A DNA stretch of 64,000 bases from the NCBI GenBank assembly GCA_033065855.1, contig JAVXUO010002858.1, forward strand, positions 310,001-374,000, written 5' to 3'. This DNA comes from Escallonia rubra. Lineage: Eukaryota; Streptophyta; Magnoliopsida; Escalloniales; Escalloniaceae. This document shows positions 28,606 to 36,931 of this stretch, one piece after another (the stretch's first letter is position 1; each line of letters starts with the position of its first letter). A program made the position numbers and the translations under genes. The notes under the pieces are model-generated. The model saw only the letters and a program-made list of their open reading frames with translations. It did no database searches and was not told the DNA's origin.

Positions 28606-29100
28606 CTTAAATGCCTAAAAACCAGTTTTTGGTTTTGAGGCAAGTTTTAGATTGTTGACTAAGTAACCCCGTTCGTTTAGAGTATTTGTTTTCTGTTTTT
28701 GTTTTCCATATTCTTGTATTCAGTTCCAAAATTTGATCGTGTACTTTTATCATTTTTTCAGTTTTTCGTTTTTACTTTTTTCAGTTAATCTTGTACGTTT
28801 ACCATTTTCATTTTCATTTTCAGTAACTTTCTTGAATCCATTCTTGTATGTTTAGCATTTCCTACACTATTTGTACCCATATTTTCCCATTTTAACCCTA
28901 CTTTTAACCAACCAAATTATTTTTATACCCTCTAAATCTTCTCATTAACTCCTCCATACTAGCCTTTTAACATTTCCCAATAAGTTCATTCTGACCGACT
29001 TCGTTTGTCTGCAGATTCAGACTTCCCCTCTCCCTTTCCCTTTCATTACTTTTCTCTTCTTCTCTCTCTTCTCTCAATCTCGCCGCTACTCACAGTGACT

Positions 29101-29190
29101 CCCCCCACGGCGACCAAACCTTCATCCCCCCCACGGCGGCCAAACCTTCATCCCCCCCACGGCGACCAAACCTTCACTCCCCCCACGGCG
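29101..29190. repeat. 26-bp minisatellite
   Basis: Four copies of a unit containing cccacggcgaccaaacctt, with acggcg at 29107, 29133, 29159 and 29185. It lies in the left non-coding arm of PIF-B. Confidence 0.85.
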
Positions 29191-29268
29191 ACAAACCAGA
29201 GGCCATGGCTCCACCTCACCATCCACCTCACAGTGCACGAAACACCCTCCGTCCACCGTCTCCACCAG

Positions 29269-29460
29269 TGGCGGAACTACGTTCACCTCCTCACTTGGTC
29301 TGTGAGACTGCAACTTGCCCTACGCCGGCCAACCAGACAGGTAGGCGGACTAGCAGACCGCACCATCGCAGACACCACTTGGCCATTTACCGGCGACGGG
29401 CAACGACGATGGAAGGCCAGCTCAAATCTGGAATGAATTGAGGCGCCGACTGCCGGGGTG
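29269..29460 (+). repeat. hAT-like inner end, left arm within PIF-B
   Basis: It starts cagtggcggaactacgtt, a terminus like those of plant hAT elements, and continues with stretches such as gcaacttgccctacgccg and gaggcgccgactgccg. These reappear inverted at 35285-35541. No matching 8-bp target duplication was found outside the pair. Confidence 0.6.
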
Positions 29461-30776
29461 GTCTCGTCAGATCTGGAACCGTCAACCGAAGAAGCAGCGA
29501 CTGCAGGGGTGGTCTCTTCTCTGTGAATCGAATTTTTTTATACGTTTTTTTGTGCTCCTTAAGACCAAGCAATTGGAATATGTTTTCGTGTAGACATTTG
29601 TGTATGCATCAACATATACTTAGTGCTATTCCTCGGATTTCTCACTCCAGGTTAGAGTGGGCTAGAAATCTGATTCTAAATGTTTTAATGCTTGGGGTGA
29701 GGCATGTGAAATATCTGTAAACATTTTTGCAATGCGTGAATTATCAAGTTGGATTTGCTTACAATTTAGAGTAGTCTGCTTTATGCCGTTTCTGTTTGCT
29801 AAGGCCGAAGTACTGGGTGGGTGACGTTTTAGCTAGAAACCCTTATTCTCAACCAGAAGTCTGCGAAAAATCTTTGTATACCTCATCAATGTTGAAATTA
29901 TCAAGCCCAAATTCATATGACAGTTGTACACCCTCTGTGCAGCGTTAGCGTTTCACTTCCACTGGAAACAAATGAAGCTTAAATAGTTAAAAGAAGCTAT
30001 GTTGCAATTGCTATAGCTATTGGTAGACCATGACAAGTAGAATCAGCTCATGGGGTGTGTTGTTGCGAGTGGTGGGTGCGATTTGTTGATGGTAAGCTTG
30101 ATAGGTGGTTGCAGTGGTGGTGGTGAGCGTCTTGATGTGGTGGTGTATTGCGTATTGCTTCCAGTGGTTGCAATGCTGGTTGCTGATGAGGACGAAAAGG
30201 GAGGTAAAACTGGATGAAAGAAGTAGGATTTCATTAGAGGACTCCGCTCAGATTCTTCTCAGTTTATCTGCAAAATGTTGTCAGATGGCATATTGTAAAT
30301 TGTAATTTGATGAAGAATGAGTGAGAGCTAGTAGACTGAGTCGCAGACTTACCTTGCCTTATGGTTTGTGTGAGTACTTACAGTGAGTAGAGGAAGCTAC
30401 CTTCCCATATCAGAATTTGATTTCTTGTCAATTTGTTTTAATACAGTTTTGTTAGATTGCACAGACTTTGCATACTTTACCAACGAGAAACGTTGTTCTG
30501 AAAAATTAGGGTAGGTCAGCGGGTCGGGGCAGATCAACGCAAGTTGTTTCACAGTTACAATTTCGCGGGCCAAAGTAGCGTGACACATAAGGCCACGAAT
30601 AAAAAATGAAAACACATACAGGCTAAAAAGCCAGTGAACATTCTAGTTTGACGCTATCAAGCATTGTCATAATACATATAAAAATTCATAATAAAGCATA
30701 CCCAAATTAAAATCATAAAACATACTGGCCATAGCTCTATGACAATCAATAAGTAGCTGTAACCCAATAATCACAT
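29461..30776. other. PIF-B left non-coding arm
   Basis: Downstream of the transposase stop. There are only short open frames, some made of GGTGGT-type simple sequence near 30050-30190. No gene is recognised. Confidence 0.5.
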
Positions 30777-32182
30777 TCAATGGCGGCGATTAGTAGCAAC
30801 CATATGATCCCTCCATATATGATCAGCCAACCCATCCCTAAAGTTGGCCATGCGGTTACACGCTGCTTGCGACAAGTCGGGAGTTGCAAAAACAGTTGCC
30901 TCATCCCCAAGTACGCGAGTCCCTTCTGCCATGTACTCGTTGAAAAGAGGGTCGTCTGGCGTATTCAGGCGGATGAAGTTATGCAAAACAAAACAAGCGT
31001 TGACGATACTGTTTTGCCTGATCAGGTTGTAGTTCGACATTAACTTTAAAATTGGAAATCTGGCCTTTAGAGCTCCGAAGCATCGTTCAATAACATTACG
31101 CAAAGATGCGTGTCTGTAGTTAAACATTTCCCTAGGTCCTCTCGGTGCATTCCTTGCTCCCTCAAAGTCGTGAAGGTGGTAGCGCTCGCCACGAAATGGG
31201 GCTAAATAACCATCCACATTACTGTATCCACTGTCGACGACGTAATATTTATCTGCAAACCAAAATTCGTGTATCGTCACATTGTATTTTGACTTTAAGT
31301 AATGAGAATATAATCATAATGTGGTAACTCATTTTCTTACTCGGAGGGGGTCGAGGGAATTCAACCTCCGCTGATGTGATGACCTCGGCATGAACTCTTG
31401 AATCATTCGCACTTCCCTCCCATCCCACATTGACAAATGTGAACATCATGTTAAAGTTACATGCAGCCATCACGTTTTGGGATATATTCCCTTTTCTTGA
31501 ACGAGATGCATTCATCTTCGACTTGGGGACAACGGCCGCCACAATTGTACCGTCAATCGCACCAATGCAATCCTGTAGAAACATTGCCAGATTAAATCAC
31601 GTTAATAAGCGGCCCAACATTAATCTGAATTACGAAAACCATAGCCATAACTGAAGGTTATACCTTGAAGTACGGGTAGTACTTTGAACTGTTTCGTATG
31701 TGTGGATCGACGCCGTCAGTAGCCTGCGGCTTTATGATTAACATTCCAAGATAACCCAAAGCCCGAGCAACACGCTTAATGGTTCGTCGTATGGTATCAA
31801 GGGAGCGTTGAAACCGTTCACTCAGTTGACGCATTCGTTCTGTGTGACTAACACAATTCAAGAAAATGTCCAAAGCCTCTTCAACACCGACGTGAGTGTG
31901 TGCGTCATCAATAAGCCATCCGTTATTCCTAAGAGTCGCTGCCAACGTTCTAAATGCATCTGGATACATCCTCATTACATTATACATTCTAGACGGATGA
32001 CCATTTAATAATTCTTGCACATGATCACTCCCAGAGAGTACAGATGTATACATAGGCCTTGGGACCCTATCTAATGCTGCACATCTCCGTTCTATTTCCT
32101 CTAACATGTAAATGTCATGAAGGTGATCTGACGATGACGTGTCACCATTATCCCATGTAGCATTGGCTTGCGAAGATGACAT
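30777..32182 (-). CDS. PIF/Harbinger transposase, intact (three exons, 408 aa)
   Basis: DDE-type nuclease of the DDE_Tnp_4 / HARBI1 family, expected to cut and rejoin the PIF-B ends. Exons on the minus strand are 32182-31664, 31572-31341 and 31252-30777, with GT-AG introns and matching phases, totalling 408 residues without a stop. Exon 1 encodes the N-terminal helical region (MSSSQANATWDNGD to SSKYYPYFK) with a helix-turn-helix-like segment around TIRRTIKRVARALGYL. Catalytic residues are all present: Asp180 in IGAIDGT, Asp230 in SANDSRV and Glu306 in LRNVIERCFGALK. Length and intron positions agree with plant PIF transposases and with the PIF-A relic. It lies 303 bp downstream of the Myb-like gene in the same direction. 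Activity cannot be judged from sequence alone. Confidence 0.93.
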
Positions 32183-32485
32183 TGCAGTATAATAACTATG
32201 AGAATGGTAACTTCAATAACCTGTTACTAAATGAACAATATATTTGTCAAGCATCTTGTTTACACATACATGCATCCTAATATAAGATAGAACATTGCAT
32301 AAATTTCAAAGAGTCAATGTTAACATTGCATAAAAACCATAATCTATCACACCGATGGTTCCAAAATTACCACTGATACACAACAGTGGACTTGCCCAAC
32401 ACAAGGGTTCAAGTAGTAAAAGTAGCAGAAACTCACACATAGCATGACTTGCGAAAAACACAGTTCATCATTACCAAACACAGAA

Positions 32486-33480
32486 CTAGGGAACCAAAGA
32501 TGCCAACAACTGCAAACGGCGATAATCAGGCATTTCAATGAATATGATGCGGTTATCCCTCTCTTTAAAACATTGCGATGCAGCCACGTATTGCTCACCA
32601 GGAATGTCCGTAATTTGATTGAGCTCCCGCATGCACCTCGTCGTGTTGTACACATCATCGACCGAGTCTTGTTGGAATCTGGAGTTGCCCTCTCGCTGAT
32701 ATTTCTGTGCTCTGGCCTTGGAGCACTCCGTCCAAGCATCAAGTGCAATGTCCATTTTCACCGACTTGGACTCCTTGCTAGAACGCGCGGTATCGGGGGT
32801 ACCCTCTGACCTACGTTTCGTCCCCACATCCGTAACATGAATATCATCATCAAGGTCAATAGTAGCACCCCTCCTACTAGAACCTCCGACATACTCATGG
32901 TATTGCTCATTCTCCTCAGCACTATTCAAAGGTCGCTGCGTTGATGAACGTGCCAATTTACCAGTTGCCGTGGACTCCGCGAAAATAAAGGCCAGATTGT
33001 CGTAATTTGCACACCCCTTCCCTCGGAACTGCTTGGCCCCTTTGTTCGCCTACATAAAATTTGGTTATACGGTATAGTTACTATGGTTATAAGGTATAGT
33101 TAAGATGAGTGTAGTACCATTAAATAGTTATCCCAAACGTCGTCCAGAGCAGTGCATGTCTGGGTTGCGTGATCCCATCCAAACCCAGTGTGATCCCGTA
33201 ACTTGGTAAACTCGCGATACTTCGCACGTAGCCTATTGTACTTTGATTTTAACTGTGACCGTTTGAACATAGTGCCGACCCCGGCAAACATGTCATTCGC
33301 AATCTCACCCCACTGTTTCGGGTTAAATGTGGAAGACTGATGGGGACGTTTCTGTTTTAGCTCCGCCATTAAATTGACAAATAATGTTTCTACACGCAGA
33401 GGCCACAAAGCTTCTTCGGCTTTTTCTTCGGCGGTAAGTCCATCTCGAAGACTAGAAATGTCCACAAACGAATCGGCCAT
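32486..33480 (-). CDS. Myb/SANT-like protein of PIF-B, intact (two exons, 308 aa)
   Basis: The accessory DNA-binding protein of plant PIF/Harbinger elements; in related systems it recruits the transposase to subterminal sites and helps nuclear import. Exons on the minus strand are 33480-33118 and 33049-32486, phase 0, giving 308 residues. The Myb/SANT-like domain (Myb_DNA-bind_3) spans about residues 28-118: FVNLMAELKQKRP, FNPKQWGEIANDMFAG, LKSKYNRLRAKYREFTKL and DDVWDNYLM. After the splice comes a conserved segment (ANKGAKQFRGKGC, YDNLAFIFAESTATGKLA), then an acidic, charged linker. The C-terminus is helical (IIFIEMPDYRRLQLLASLVP). Nothing is missing for the family. Confidence 0.92.
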
Positions 33481-33818
33481 CTACAATTATGCACGTAAAC
33501 ATAGTTACACGTCTCATTTGTCCGGTCTCATGTCATGTAGCTACTTTACATCATGCAATAGTATATGATAACGTCACATTGTATTTAATTGCTCTAATTG
33601 AACGAGTGTGTGTCGGCTTCAACAGAAACACGGGCTATACAGTCGTGCATGTCTAATGTAAATATGTAAGATAACAGTATACAGTACGCAATGATTAATG
33701 AAGATACTCAACAGTAATGCAGCGTACAAGAGTCTAATAACAATCTTCACAATAAGTGTTCAAAGCACATTGAAGCATATAACAGTACAGTACACGTCTC
33801 ATTAACAACAAATGACAG

Positions 33819-34178
33819 CTAGAAGGATGCGGGTTCACTTCTTGGGCCACTATTGGCCCTCATCCATGCCATCGGAGGCATTGGGGGGAAGGGTGCTAGA
33901 GATTCGTCGTGCAATTGTGTTTCGATTGGTCCACCAAATCCTTGCGAATGAGTTGCTAGGTCGGCCATGGGAGACACTGCCGGAAGGGGTTGTTCAGGAG
34001 GTTCAACATGTCTTTCCCAACGAGATTTGTAAAGTACATAAGCAGTACTGGCGTCACTACGTTTACGGTATTTTTTAAAAACGCAGTTACGAAATCCCGA
34101 CACTTGCAGTTGACATTCTTCCCATGTGTCGTAAATGCCGGGCACTCGACCGACAAATACAACGTACCAGCTTGGCAT
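33819..34178 (-). CDS. RNase H1 N-terminal (hybrid-binding) domain protein in PIF-B, 119 aa
   Basis: A single-exon frame starts MPSWYVVFVGRVPGIYDTW. Residues 3-50 match the RNase H1 N-terminal hybrid-binding fold (Pfam Cauli_VI / RNase H1 N-terminal family): the WYVVFVGRVPGIYDTWEEC core, QVSGFRNCVFKKY, then a helix with RSDASTAY. In RNase H1 this small domain binds RNA-DNA hybrids or double-stranded RNA. No catalytic RNase H domain follows; the rest is a proline-rich, probably disordered tail (about residues 57-119) ending SGPRSEPASF. The gene lies 338 bp upstream of the Myb-like gene in the same direction, inside the element. It could be an accessory protein of PIF-B, a captured host gene or a chance passenger. 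Domain identification is fairly sure; the role is unknown. Confidence 0.8.
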   Translation of the reverse strand: MPSWYVVFVGRVPGIYDTWEECQLQVSGFRNCVFKKYRKRSDASTAYVLYKSRWERHVEPPEQPLPAVSPMADLATHSQGFGGPIETQLHDESLAPFPPMPPMAWMRANSGPRSEPASF

Positions 34179-35284
34179 TTATTATCCCTATCATAAAAAA
34201 GGACATATACAACATGAGATTCATTAGCTTTTAATGTTATGATTAAACCGTAATAAACATCGGTACAGTTTTTAGAGTTTCCTGCAGTTCCTAACAAAAG
34301 AGAAATGCAATAAGGTTTTTGAAACATTAAACAGAAAAATTGAAATTGTTTCCACGCATTCTTGATAAAATAAGCATTAGAGTTTCATGCTCAGGGGTCA
34401 ATAAGCATGTGCTGTAACGGCTCATCTCTCATACGAATATGAAATAGGTGCCTGCTCCTTATTTCTCAAAATAGATTATGAAATAACACCATTCTCTGTA
34501 ATCTATGTTTGATTCTTCATTAAAGTTACAGAAGTTCTTTTACTAGATTCTCTCATGGTTATGATTATGGTGTTCAGGCTTGCCTGTTCATCTAGATATT
34601 GTTATTTGTTGCAAATTTTGTGTACTAAACCATTTTCTGTATAGTTTTAACTGATGGCTCTACACTTCCCCCTAAGATGCTCTCAGGCTGATCCTAGAGC
34701 TCCAAAACTACTAGATTCCTCACTGCACACATACTGAGAGTTATGGATGCCCCATGAAGAAGCTACAAACAGCAATGGAGCAACCCTCCAGAACCCAAGG
34801 CACTAAATCAGTCGAGCCCTAACCAAAGTTTTCTGCTACTGTTTCTTAACTGGGGTTAAGCTGCAAATCAAATTCATCGAAAGTGATATGCGGTTGGTGT
34901 TCGACTCTGCTCATCCCTGAATTGACCCATAAGCCTAGAGCTGTGTTTCTTAACTGGGGTTAAGCTACTGTTTCTTAGCTGGAAGGCATGAAACTTCTTC
35001 TTAATTGAGAATTGTAGACGATTAGAAACAAATTCACCTAAAGGGAGCTAGAGGCTGATTTCAGAAGTGCAATCACAAGCACATGACCACAGCATAACCG
35101 ATCAAGAACTAAAGAACAACCCCACCACAAACAAGACAAGCCTCACAACCCATGACCACACCTTCTGCTCGGGTGAGCTATCAAAACCCACCAAAAAATT
35201 CAATCGTGATTGCTTCAGGAAACAAGAAAAAGCAAAAACCCAACTAAGATTTGATGCCAAAAATGAAGGGTACCCATGAATCGG
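34179..35284. other. PIF-B region upstream of the three genes
   Basis: AT-rich, with only short open frames and no recognised gene. Promoter sequence for the minus-strand genes should lie here, but I see no distinctive site. Confidence 0.5.
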
Positions 35285-35541
35285 CAGTCGGCGCCTCCAA
35301 TCGTTCCAGATCTGAGTTGGCTCCACTCGCTGTCGACCGTCGGCTGTCCCCGGTGAGTGGGTGTTTACAGTCTGCCCGTCTAGGACTAGGAGAGTGGGAA
35401 TGGGTGAGAGAGTTGAGCGGCCTAGGGCAAGTCGCAGAGAGTGAGAGAGAGAGAGTGACTGAGATGAAATGGAAAAAAAAAAATTCAAAAGTTGAGGGGG
35501 TACATCAGCCCCCCCTCGTTCCAACGTAGCTCCGCCACTGA
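35285..35541 (-). repeat. hAT-like inner end, right arm within PIF-B
   Basis: Read on the minus strand from 35541 it begins cagtggcggagctacgtt and continues with a G-rich stretch (gggggggctgatg) and an A/T run. The same layout (aaaaaattcaaaag, a G-run, cagcccccc) ends the complete hAT element at 57602-58721, so it belongs to that kind of terminus. It is the inverted partner of 29269-29460. Confidence 0.6.
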
Positions 35542-36931
35542 CCACACAGGCGCACCCAAGGCCGCCAACCGCACGAAGGGCCACTACAGGCGACAGCCTT
35601 CGGCTGCCTAAATCAGTCGCGCACCCAAGAGCCACCCACAACGACACCGGCAACCACAGCGGCAACTGATCCCCGTTCCCAAGGGCTACACAACATACAC
35701 ATACAATCTCGCACGCCGAGGGCCATTAATGGCCCACCCACGGCCGCCGTCGGTCCAGTCACGCCACCACTGCCTGTCGTCCATCCAACGGAATAAGCTA
35801 CTTCTACTTCTTGTTAAATAGAAACGGAGGAAACGGAGGAAACCATCTTCAATCAATCAACCCACAAACAAAAATCAAAGAGAAAACAGAAACAGCAAGG
35901 AGAGTAGCAGATCGATCGACTGAAGAATAAAGTGAGAAATTGGTAAAAACCTTTGACAACTGTGCAGGCGATAGGACGTCGTTCTCTCCGGTCACGGATC
36001 GTTGGGTGCTTGTTAGGGAGATGATAGGTACTCGGCAGGAGGAAAGAGGCTCGGTTTTGACAGATCCACTGGATGGAAGGGAAATGTGTAGCTGAACTGG
36101 AGACGGCGTCTCCGTTTTCTATGTGACGTGTCTCCGGCAGCTAAGGGGAACAAGCGTTGAGTCGACCGCAGCTTCTATAATTTCTTCGGCAGCTTGAGCT
36201 TGAGAAATGGAGTGAGAGAGTGTTGGGGATCTGCTCATTGAAAATATGAGATGTGCAATGAATAACAGGCAGAGAGGGAGGGGGAGAGAGGAGAGCTGTG
36301 ACGTGACTAGGCATGTAGGCTTCGTAGAGCTTGTAAGAGAGAACCGTGAACAGTGGAAACCCATGCCTCACTCTTCAGAGTTTTCTTTGACAAGAGTTCG
36401 GCCGACTGAGAAAAGGTGAAAACACCTCAAAGGTGTTTTCACGTTTTCTACAATGTTCACGATTTTTGGATCCGATACAAATACAAAAAATGGTAAAAGT
36501 ACACGAAATATTCTGTTTTTTCGTAATCATTACAAAAAACGGAAAACAAAAACTCTAAACGTACGGGCCCTCAAAGTTTTAAGTTAAAGGATCCATTTTA
36601 TTAGGAGATTAATTTGTGATTCAAAACTTTTTGAATATCAGATTCAAAGAAGCAAGTCAGTAAAGCTTGTACGTTAATTGGTAGGCGTTTATGATTTCTG
36701 ACCAAAGCTTATGCCACCAACCATAAGGCAAAAACAATTGTCAAAATCAATTGTCCTATCATTTCTCTACACAATCTTGTTTGTTTTGTCTTAGTAGTTG
36801 CAAGTTTCAAACACTACTAATTTTGATCATGTGTGTTGCATGCGAGAGTAACAATATCAAAGTATTTATTGAGATATATCTTACGTGTATGCTTAATAAG
36901 AATAACAAATTTTCTAGTGACAAAAAAATAA

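Follow-up and report, generated by a model that had tools for sequence, protein, structure and literature searches.

Can a lineage of PIF/Harbinger transposons keep a third gene of its own? The question is raised by an element of Escallonia rubra, which lies at positions 28667 to 36570, on the minus strand, of a 64,000-nucleotide stretch of DNA (hereafter, the window, whose positions are used throughout; contig JAVXUO010002858.1, here C2197:310001-374000). Most candidate autonomous PIF/Harbinger elements are described as having two open reading frames (ORFs), one of which encodes a DDE transposase and the other a Myb/SANT protein (PMC4482050; PMC7282668). In the window copy, a 119-amino-acid (aa) ORF (34178-33819) comes first in the order of transcription, followed by the Myb/SANT gene and then by the transposase gene, and all three lie on the minus strand, as the first-pass annotation of this DNA had read them.

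The gene trio across the genome

In order to see how often the three genes occur together, searches were run with the third protein, its Pfam family (PF01693), the Myb exon, transposase exon 3, and Myb_DNA-bind_3, and the resulting lists were combined by position. The source of every genome-wide count given here is one 566-Mb genome, the window's own. After second pieces of one copy had been dropped, the combined lists held 61 places with the domain, 170 with a Myb match, and 147 with a transposase match; transposase places known only from one further search were not added. Because the searches score best candidates only, all co-occurrence counts are lower bounds.

At 32 of the 61 domain places, matches to Myb and to the transposase both lay on the same strand and no more than 10 kb away. 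These trios belong to several divergent families, and in every one of them (32/32) the order was third gene, Myb gene, transposase gene, all in the same direction. The first-pass annotation had proposed the third gene as a new component of such elements, and within this genome the trio was indeed conserved in order and direction, with other PIF elements carrying the gene at the same place. The remaining 29 domain places were 9 relatives of the 119-aa ORF and 20 other PF01693 genes without PIF neighbors in the lists. Among the nine relatives, one (C1349) has only a Myb match and stands at the end of a contig, another (C1526) has a transposase match alongside, and seven, which include fragments and deletion products, have neither in the lists.

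Counting from the transposase instead, 29 of the 44 places most like the window copy had the trio, 3 had Myb only, and 12 had neither. There were 76 Myb-transposase pairs, 32 with the third gene and 44 without it. Three of the gene-less pairs make up subfamily F (see below), and in the other 41 the transposase exon was at most 58% identical to that of the window copy. A decayed third gene below the search thresholds would be invisible, and the absence of the gene from these outer PIF families holds at that sensitivity.

Some loci depart from the simple arrangement. In three deletion derivatives, L098 (C1012), L100 (C1526), and L036 (C1393), the initial residues of the third gene directly adjoin a late part of the transposase gene or continue into it. 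At C1852:345906-353016 (L026/L035), two trios occupy opposite strands, with about 0.8 kb between their divergently oriented third genes.

Families and selection on the third gene

The window copy belongs to family A. Outside this family, the third protein is 59 to 80% identical to that of the window copy in families B, C, and D. In family E (contigs C35, C1616, and C2443), identity is 55 to 59% in the domain half and 75 to 76% in the tail half, and on contig C1503 it is 49%. Full-length open copies of the third gene outside family A were found in families B and C (L026, L030, and L031); the copies read from families D and E and from C1503 are decayed.

Selection was evaluated with pairwise ratios of nonsynonymous to synonymous substitution (dN/dS) and binomial p values; these pairs have branches in common and do not count as independent tests. 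When the window copy was paired with intact copies from other families, the third gene gave values of 0.37, 0.48, and 0.20 (p of 0.0024, 0.024, and 3.6e-7, respectively). The Myb exon, which two of these three pairs have, gave 0.47 and 0.50. When all pairs of family A with other families were pooled, the third gene had a value of 0.375 and Myb one of 0.395. Purifying selection on the third gene between families was about as strong as that on the Myb partner.

The constraint is not spread evenly along the protein. Over nine pairs, dN/dS was 0.25 for residues 1 to 50, 0.68 for the linker (residues 51 to 90), and 0.23 for the tail (residues 91 to 119), the last of these resting on some 5 silent and 5 changing differences per pair. 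When the window copy was aligned with two family C copies, none of the 360 columns of the reading frame contained a gap, against 83 and 93 of the 341 columns of the adjoining spacer. The stop codon was TAG, at the same column, in all seven copies compared.

A subfamily without the gene

Subfamily F consists of three copies without the third gene, on contigs C441 (L085), C1803 (L086), and C159. In the two copies that were read, nothing ahead of the Myb gene matched the third gene significantly. These two are 90 to 92% identical to family C in the DNA of the Myb gene and are nested inside that gene-bearing family, so that the absence of the gene in subfamily F represents a loss. Two of the three F copies have Myb exons that are 99% alike and a transposase exon 3 without stops. 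These two are alike as far as the 5' end of the element and not beyond it, which indicates separate insertions at different sites. Given that the subfamily lost the gene and nevertheless has copies at different sites, the third gene is not needed in cis. Subfamily F itself may have been served in trans, since C159 has stops and the sequence of C1803, in the stretch read, breaks off within Myb exon 2. The subfamily offers a natural comparison for the role of the third gene.

The third protein and its predicted binding residues

The third gene occupies positions 33819 to 34178 (minus strand, stop included). Its 119-aa product matched PF01693 (Cauli_VI) with an E value of 1.2e-16 and 61 bits against a cut-off of 21, and its top matches in both phmmer and Foldseek were RNase H1 hybrid-binding domains. 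Against the PDB, phmmer returned the yeast RNase HI (4.1e-7) and the human RNase H1 (1.4e-4). No RNase H catalytic domain was matched in the ORF, for which PF01693 was the sole Pfam match over the cut-off. Measured against RNase H1, the protein therefore has the N-terminal hybrid-binding domain and no match to the C-terminal catalytic domain, which bears out the earlier description of a hybrid-binding domain without a nuclease.

The domain covers residues 1 to 50 (34029-34178, minus strand), where W19, F34, K35, and K36 align with the W and the FKK of human RNase H1. K35 and K36 follow W19 at distances of 16 and 17 residues, which fits the human W43, K59, and K60. In the human enzyme, W43A and KK59/60AA weaken hybrid binding (PMC10639055), and W43A/K59A/K60A together with D210N serves as a nonbinding catalytic mutant (PMC6868509). 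The four residues were kept in all 22 near-full-length copies aligned, 6 of which have a stop or a gap. A predicted model of residues 1 to 55 had a predicted local distance difference test score (pLDDT) of 80. In a fold search with this model, the six best PDB matches, all RNase H1 hybrid-binding domains, were five human chains and one from yeast, with probabilities of 0.94 to 1.00 and E values of 0.03 to 0.24 (best, 0.031; none at or below 0.001).

The constrained C-terminal tail (residues 91 to 119, ending in PPMAWMRANSGPRSEPASF) lies at 33822-33908 on the minus strand. On the other side of the gene, directly before its ATG, a block resembling a 3' splice site (34179-34215, minus strand; a run of T and then ATAG) is conserved between families A and C, although the DNA further upstream does not align, and of seven copies only C858 has lost its AG, having AT instead. 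Because this acceptor-like block is kept where the upstream DNA does not align, the third gene may be spliced from a shared leader.

A possible role for the third protein

The reading that we favor, with a probability of about 0.5, is that the third protein would be a trans-acting accessory adaptor, whose domain would hold RNA:DNA hybrids or double-stranded RNA (dsRNA) and whose tail would dock a partner, keeping the element expressed. A PIF/Harbinger clade would have gained the gene upstream of the Myb gene before the present families split. The layout of the protein, with a nucleic acid-binding head, a free linker, and a constrained C-terminal tail of 29 residues, would be that of a two-ended adaptor. 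Since the equivalents of the binding residues (W19, K35, and K36) are kept, the head should bind either RNA:DNA hybrid (R-loops) or dsRNA from element transcripts. Similarly, its constraint suggests a protein partner for the tail. The simplest candidates would be the Myb protein or the transposase of the element itself, and a chromatin or RNA factor of the host would be another. As subfamily F spread to different sites despite its loss of the gene, the protein would be an accessory able to act in trans and not a part of the cutting machine, and for the same reason we prefer a role in expression over one in DNA cutting. The likeliest benefit would be sustained expression of the element, either because hybrid or dsRNA would be shielded from the silencing machinery or because transcribed copies would be marked. 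VANDAL transposons encode VANC, an accessory protein that acts against silencing (PMC5735166). The likeness of VANC to the third protein is a functional analogy, that of a transposon-encoded accessory protein, and VANC21, unlike the predicted hybrid-binder described here, binds specific DNA motifs (PMC5735166). In a more specific form, which we put forward tentatively, this clade may have an RNA:DNA-hybrid reader of its own, a nuclease-free RNase H1 domain tied by its tail to the transposition or chromatin machinery, with R-loops or dsRNA guiding protection or movement.

Several observations weigh against the favored adaptor role, beginning with the shared branches of the dN/dS pairs. Within the young family A, 46 amino-acid-changing and 17 silent differences showed no departure from neutrality (p = 0.22), as is expected for idle copies, yet this gives no support either. 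The pairs that do not include the window copy were weaker, with dN/dS values of 0.45 (p = 0.016), 0.66, and 1.07 (L026 versus L030), and pooled pairs among the other families gave 0.67 for the third gene versus 0.39 for Myb. Selection was thus evident on the deep split between family A and the other families and not among young copies. The first-pass annotation had named purifying selection on copies of the small gene as a test of its reading, and in this genome the test did not refute it, such selection being present between families (0.20; p = 3.6e-7) though not measurable among young copies (p = 0.22). The W and the KK are lost in decayed copies of the most divergent families, E and C1503 (L095, L099, and L096). 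The model of the full-length protein, tail included, was poor (pLDDT of 52) and was not used. The spread of subfamily F without the gene speaks against a strict need for it, and the anti-silencing step is drawn purely by analogy.

In the main rival to the adaptor reading, the protein would anchor the transposition complex at R-loops, such as those at promoters, and would in this way choose target sites or transcribed donor copies. The conserved hybrid-binding residues would suit such targeting, as would a separate constrained tail able to dock the Myb protein or the transposase, but subfamily F spread without the gene, though possibly served in trans, and we regard targeting as possible and rather unlikely. 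The same subfamily argues against a helper in replication or repair, which would aid the host's repair after transposition through a domain that coats structured RNA or hybrids in the gaps left by excision. Only the binding residues of the domain speak for this helper, no link to repair was seen, and we consider it quite improbable.

That the ORF is no separate protein at all, being instead an alternative 5' exon or an upstream ORF that regulates the output of Myb protein, draws on its position, with its end 338 bp upstream of the Myb ATG, and on the acceptor-like sequences shortly before both ATGs. Such a function has no need for a hybrid-binding domain with intact binding residues, however, and the constraint reaches the last residues before a stop (tail dN/dS of 0.23) that is TAG at one and the same column in all seven copies. 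A splicing fusion of the ORF to the Myb protein was rejected on the same constraint up to the stop and because one donor-like GT in the tail, tried by eye, was in the wrong frame for Myb. Overall, we judge a 5' exon or upstream ORF to be improbable, although less so than the repair helper. Least probable of all is accidental capture, the alternative offered by the first-pass annotation, here taken as that of a fragment of host RNase H1 that hitchhikes without function. Transposons do capture pieces of genes, a fungal Helitron with a captured PF01693 gene has been reported (PMC4289320), and the changes within family A look neutral. Against this, the gene is kept in place and in frame across families, without in-frame gaps relative to family C, and is under purifying selection (p = 3.6e-7 in the clearest pair). 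For the families compared, accidental capture is largely refuted; a capture by the window copy alone is ruled out within this genome by the 32 trios in the same order together with the selection between families.

If the hybrid-reader form of this idea is correct, PIF/Harbinger transposons would have a third functional component, one that connects R-loops with cut-and-paste transposition. The accounts cited here start from a two-protein system, and a selected third gene would provide a handle on RNA-based silencing or on site choice. The protein would also be a natural stand-alone hybrid-binding protein, as predicted from its domain. Chromatin proteins domesticated from PIF/Harbinger elements, ALP1/ALP2 and HDP1/HDP2, are known (PMC7282668).

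Comparison with known systems

PIF/Harbinger transposons (PHIS superfamily), such as Ping/Pong of rice, share with this element a DDE_Tnp_4 transposase, a Myb/SANT partner, short terminal inverted repeats starting with G, and a 3-bp TWA duplication (PMC4482050). The clade of the window copy departs from the usual two-gene capacity through the constrained third gene that lies upstream of its Myb gene, a difference that widens the PIF/Harbinger family and does not exclude the element from it. Among the literature matches listed, in the portions of text available, there was no PIF/Harbinger element with an RNase H1 domain gene and no three-gene precedent, in agreement with the earlier statement that only two genes are known for this group; Repbase reports and most subscription papers fall outside that scope.

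With the hybrid-binding domain of RNase H1 (human 3BSU and yeast 1QHK), the third protein shares the sequence match, the predicted fold, and the residues equivalent to W43, K59, and K60. Unlike RNase H1, it has no matched catalytic domain and has a linker and a conserved tail of its own. The viroplasmin/transactivator of Caulimovirus is a much larger viral translation factor and the source of the short name of PF01693. It is similar to RNase H1 (PMC7102451). No viral gene was seen in the element, where none was specifically looked for, and a search of IMG/VR for relatives gave one match, of 17 residues.

The same genome contains a second group of PF01693 genes, at 20 places, of which four were read (L056, L063, L064, and L068, on C1068, C161, C2551, and C2976). 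In these four, the domain exon is followed by an exon with a GRF-like zinc finger, below the Pfam cut-off, and by a coiled-coil exon. Their PF01693 domain is 36 to 42% identical to that of the third gene, its binding site has not retained the W, the F, or the first K, and no listed PIF genes lie within 10 kb. The possibility that the third gene is the same as these other PF01693 genes was rejected for the four read (of 20), given their zinc-finger family, different binding site, and lack of PIF neighbors. The second group may itself be a gene family that is mobile or has been duplicated.

Structure of the element

The element looks complete, and the four structural features that were tested place it in PIF/Harbinger. 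Its transposase is of the DDE_Tnp_4 type (PF13359; 1.5e-12 and 3.6e-6) with a complete catalytic triad, and it was read, all on the minus strand, as exon 1 from the ATG (31664-32182), exon 2 with D180 and D230 (31341-31572; 3.6e-6 for the ORF), and exon 3 with E306 (30777-31252; 1.5e-12 for the ORF). Spliced together, these give a frame of 408 aa without a stop, so that the transposase is intact with the three residues previously assigned to it. The second feature is a separate gene for a Myb/SANT protein, which has its Myb/SANT-like domain (Myb_DNA-bind_3, PF12776; 2.7e-19) in exon 1 (33118-33480, minus strand), where an acceptor-like TTGTAG directly precedes the ATG. The domain had been recognized before, in what was taken for a single ORF of 126 aa; the gene instead has two exons and encodes about 308 aa, the second exon (32486-33049, minus strand), which is also found in copies, being joined in frame at NYLM|ANKG, a junction read by eye.

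The third feature is a pair of short terminal inverted repeats starting with G or A, as is typical of PIF/Harbinger. The arms are 33 nt long and 91% matching. That at the 5' end of the coding strand (36535-36570), found by inverted-repeat and pattern searches, includes GGGCCCGTACGTTTAGAG (C2197:346553-346570, or window 36553-36570) and ends precisely at 36570. That at the 3' end (28667-28700) has a tip that is 2 bases shorter than in the four siblings read. With terminal repeats at both ends, the limits of 28667 and 36570 first given for the element proved exact. Allowing up to 2 mismatches, GGGCCCGTACGTTTAGAG occurs 171 times in the genome, versus 2 times for a reversed control. Both terminal repeats bracket the trio in six further copies (C1134, C3183, C3120, C2873, C1514, and C616) among the pattern matches listed.

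The fourth feature is the 3-bp TWA target-site duplication. The window copy is flanked by TAA (28664-28666) and TCA (36571-36573), with one mismatch between them, and the sibling on C1994, the only one with both ends read, by TTA and TTA. In three siblings with only the 3' flank read, this flank starts with TAA, TAG, and GAA.

PIF/Harbinger elements are a source of plant miniature inverted-repeat transposable elements (MITEs). Inverted pairs of the same terminal repeat, 0.3 to 1.4 kb apart, were seen at C848:314215-314528, C233:290143-291240, C731:27419-28837, and C1389:1763454-1764728 and are probably nonautonomous (MITE-like) derivatives. Well inside the ends of the window copy, there is an inner inverted repeat of 40 nt (29416-29455 and 35282-35321; 88% matching), possibly a duplicated leader or a binding region for the transposase. 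Outside the element, a second Myb_DNA-bind_3 match with two stops, at 1644-1910 on the plus strand, marks a decayed PIF-type gene.

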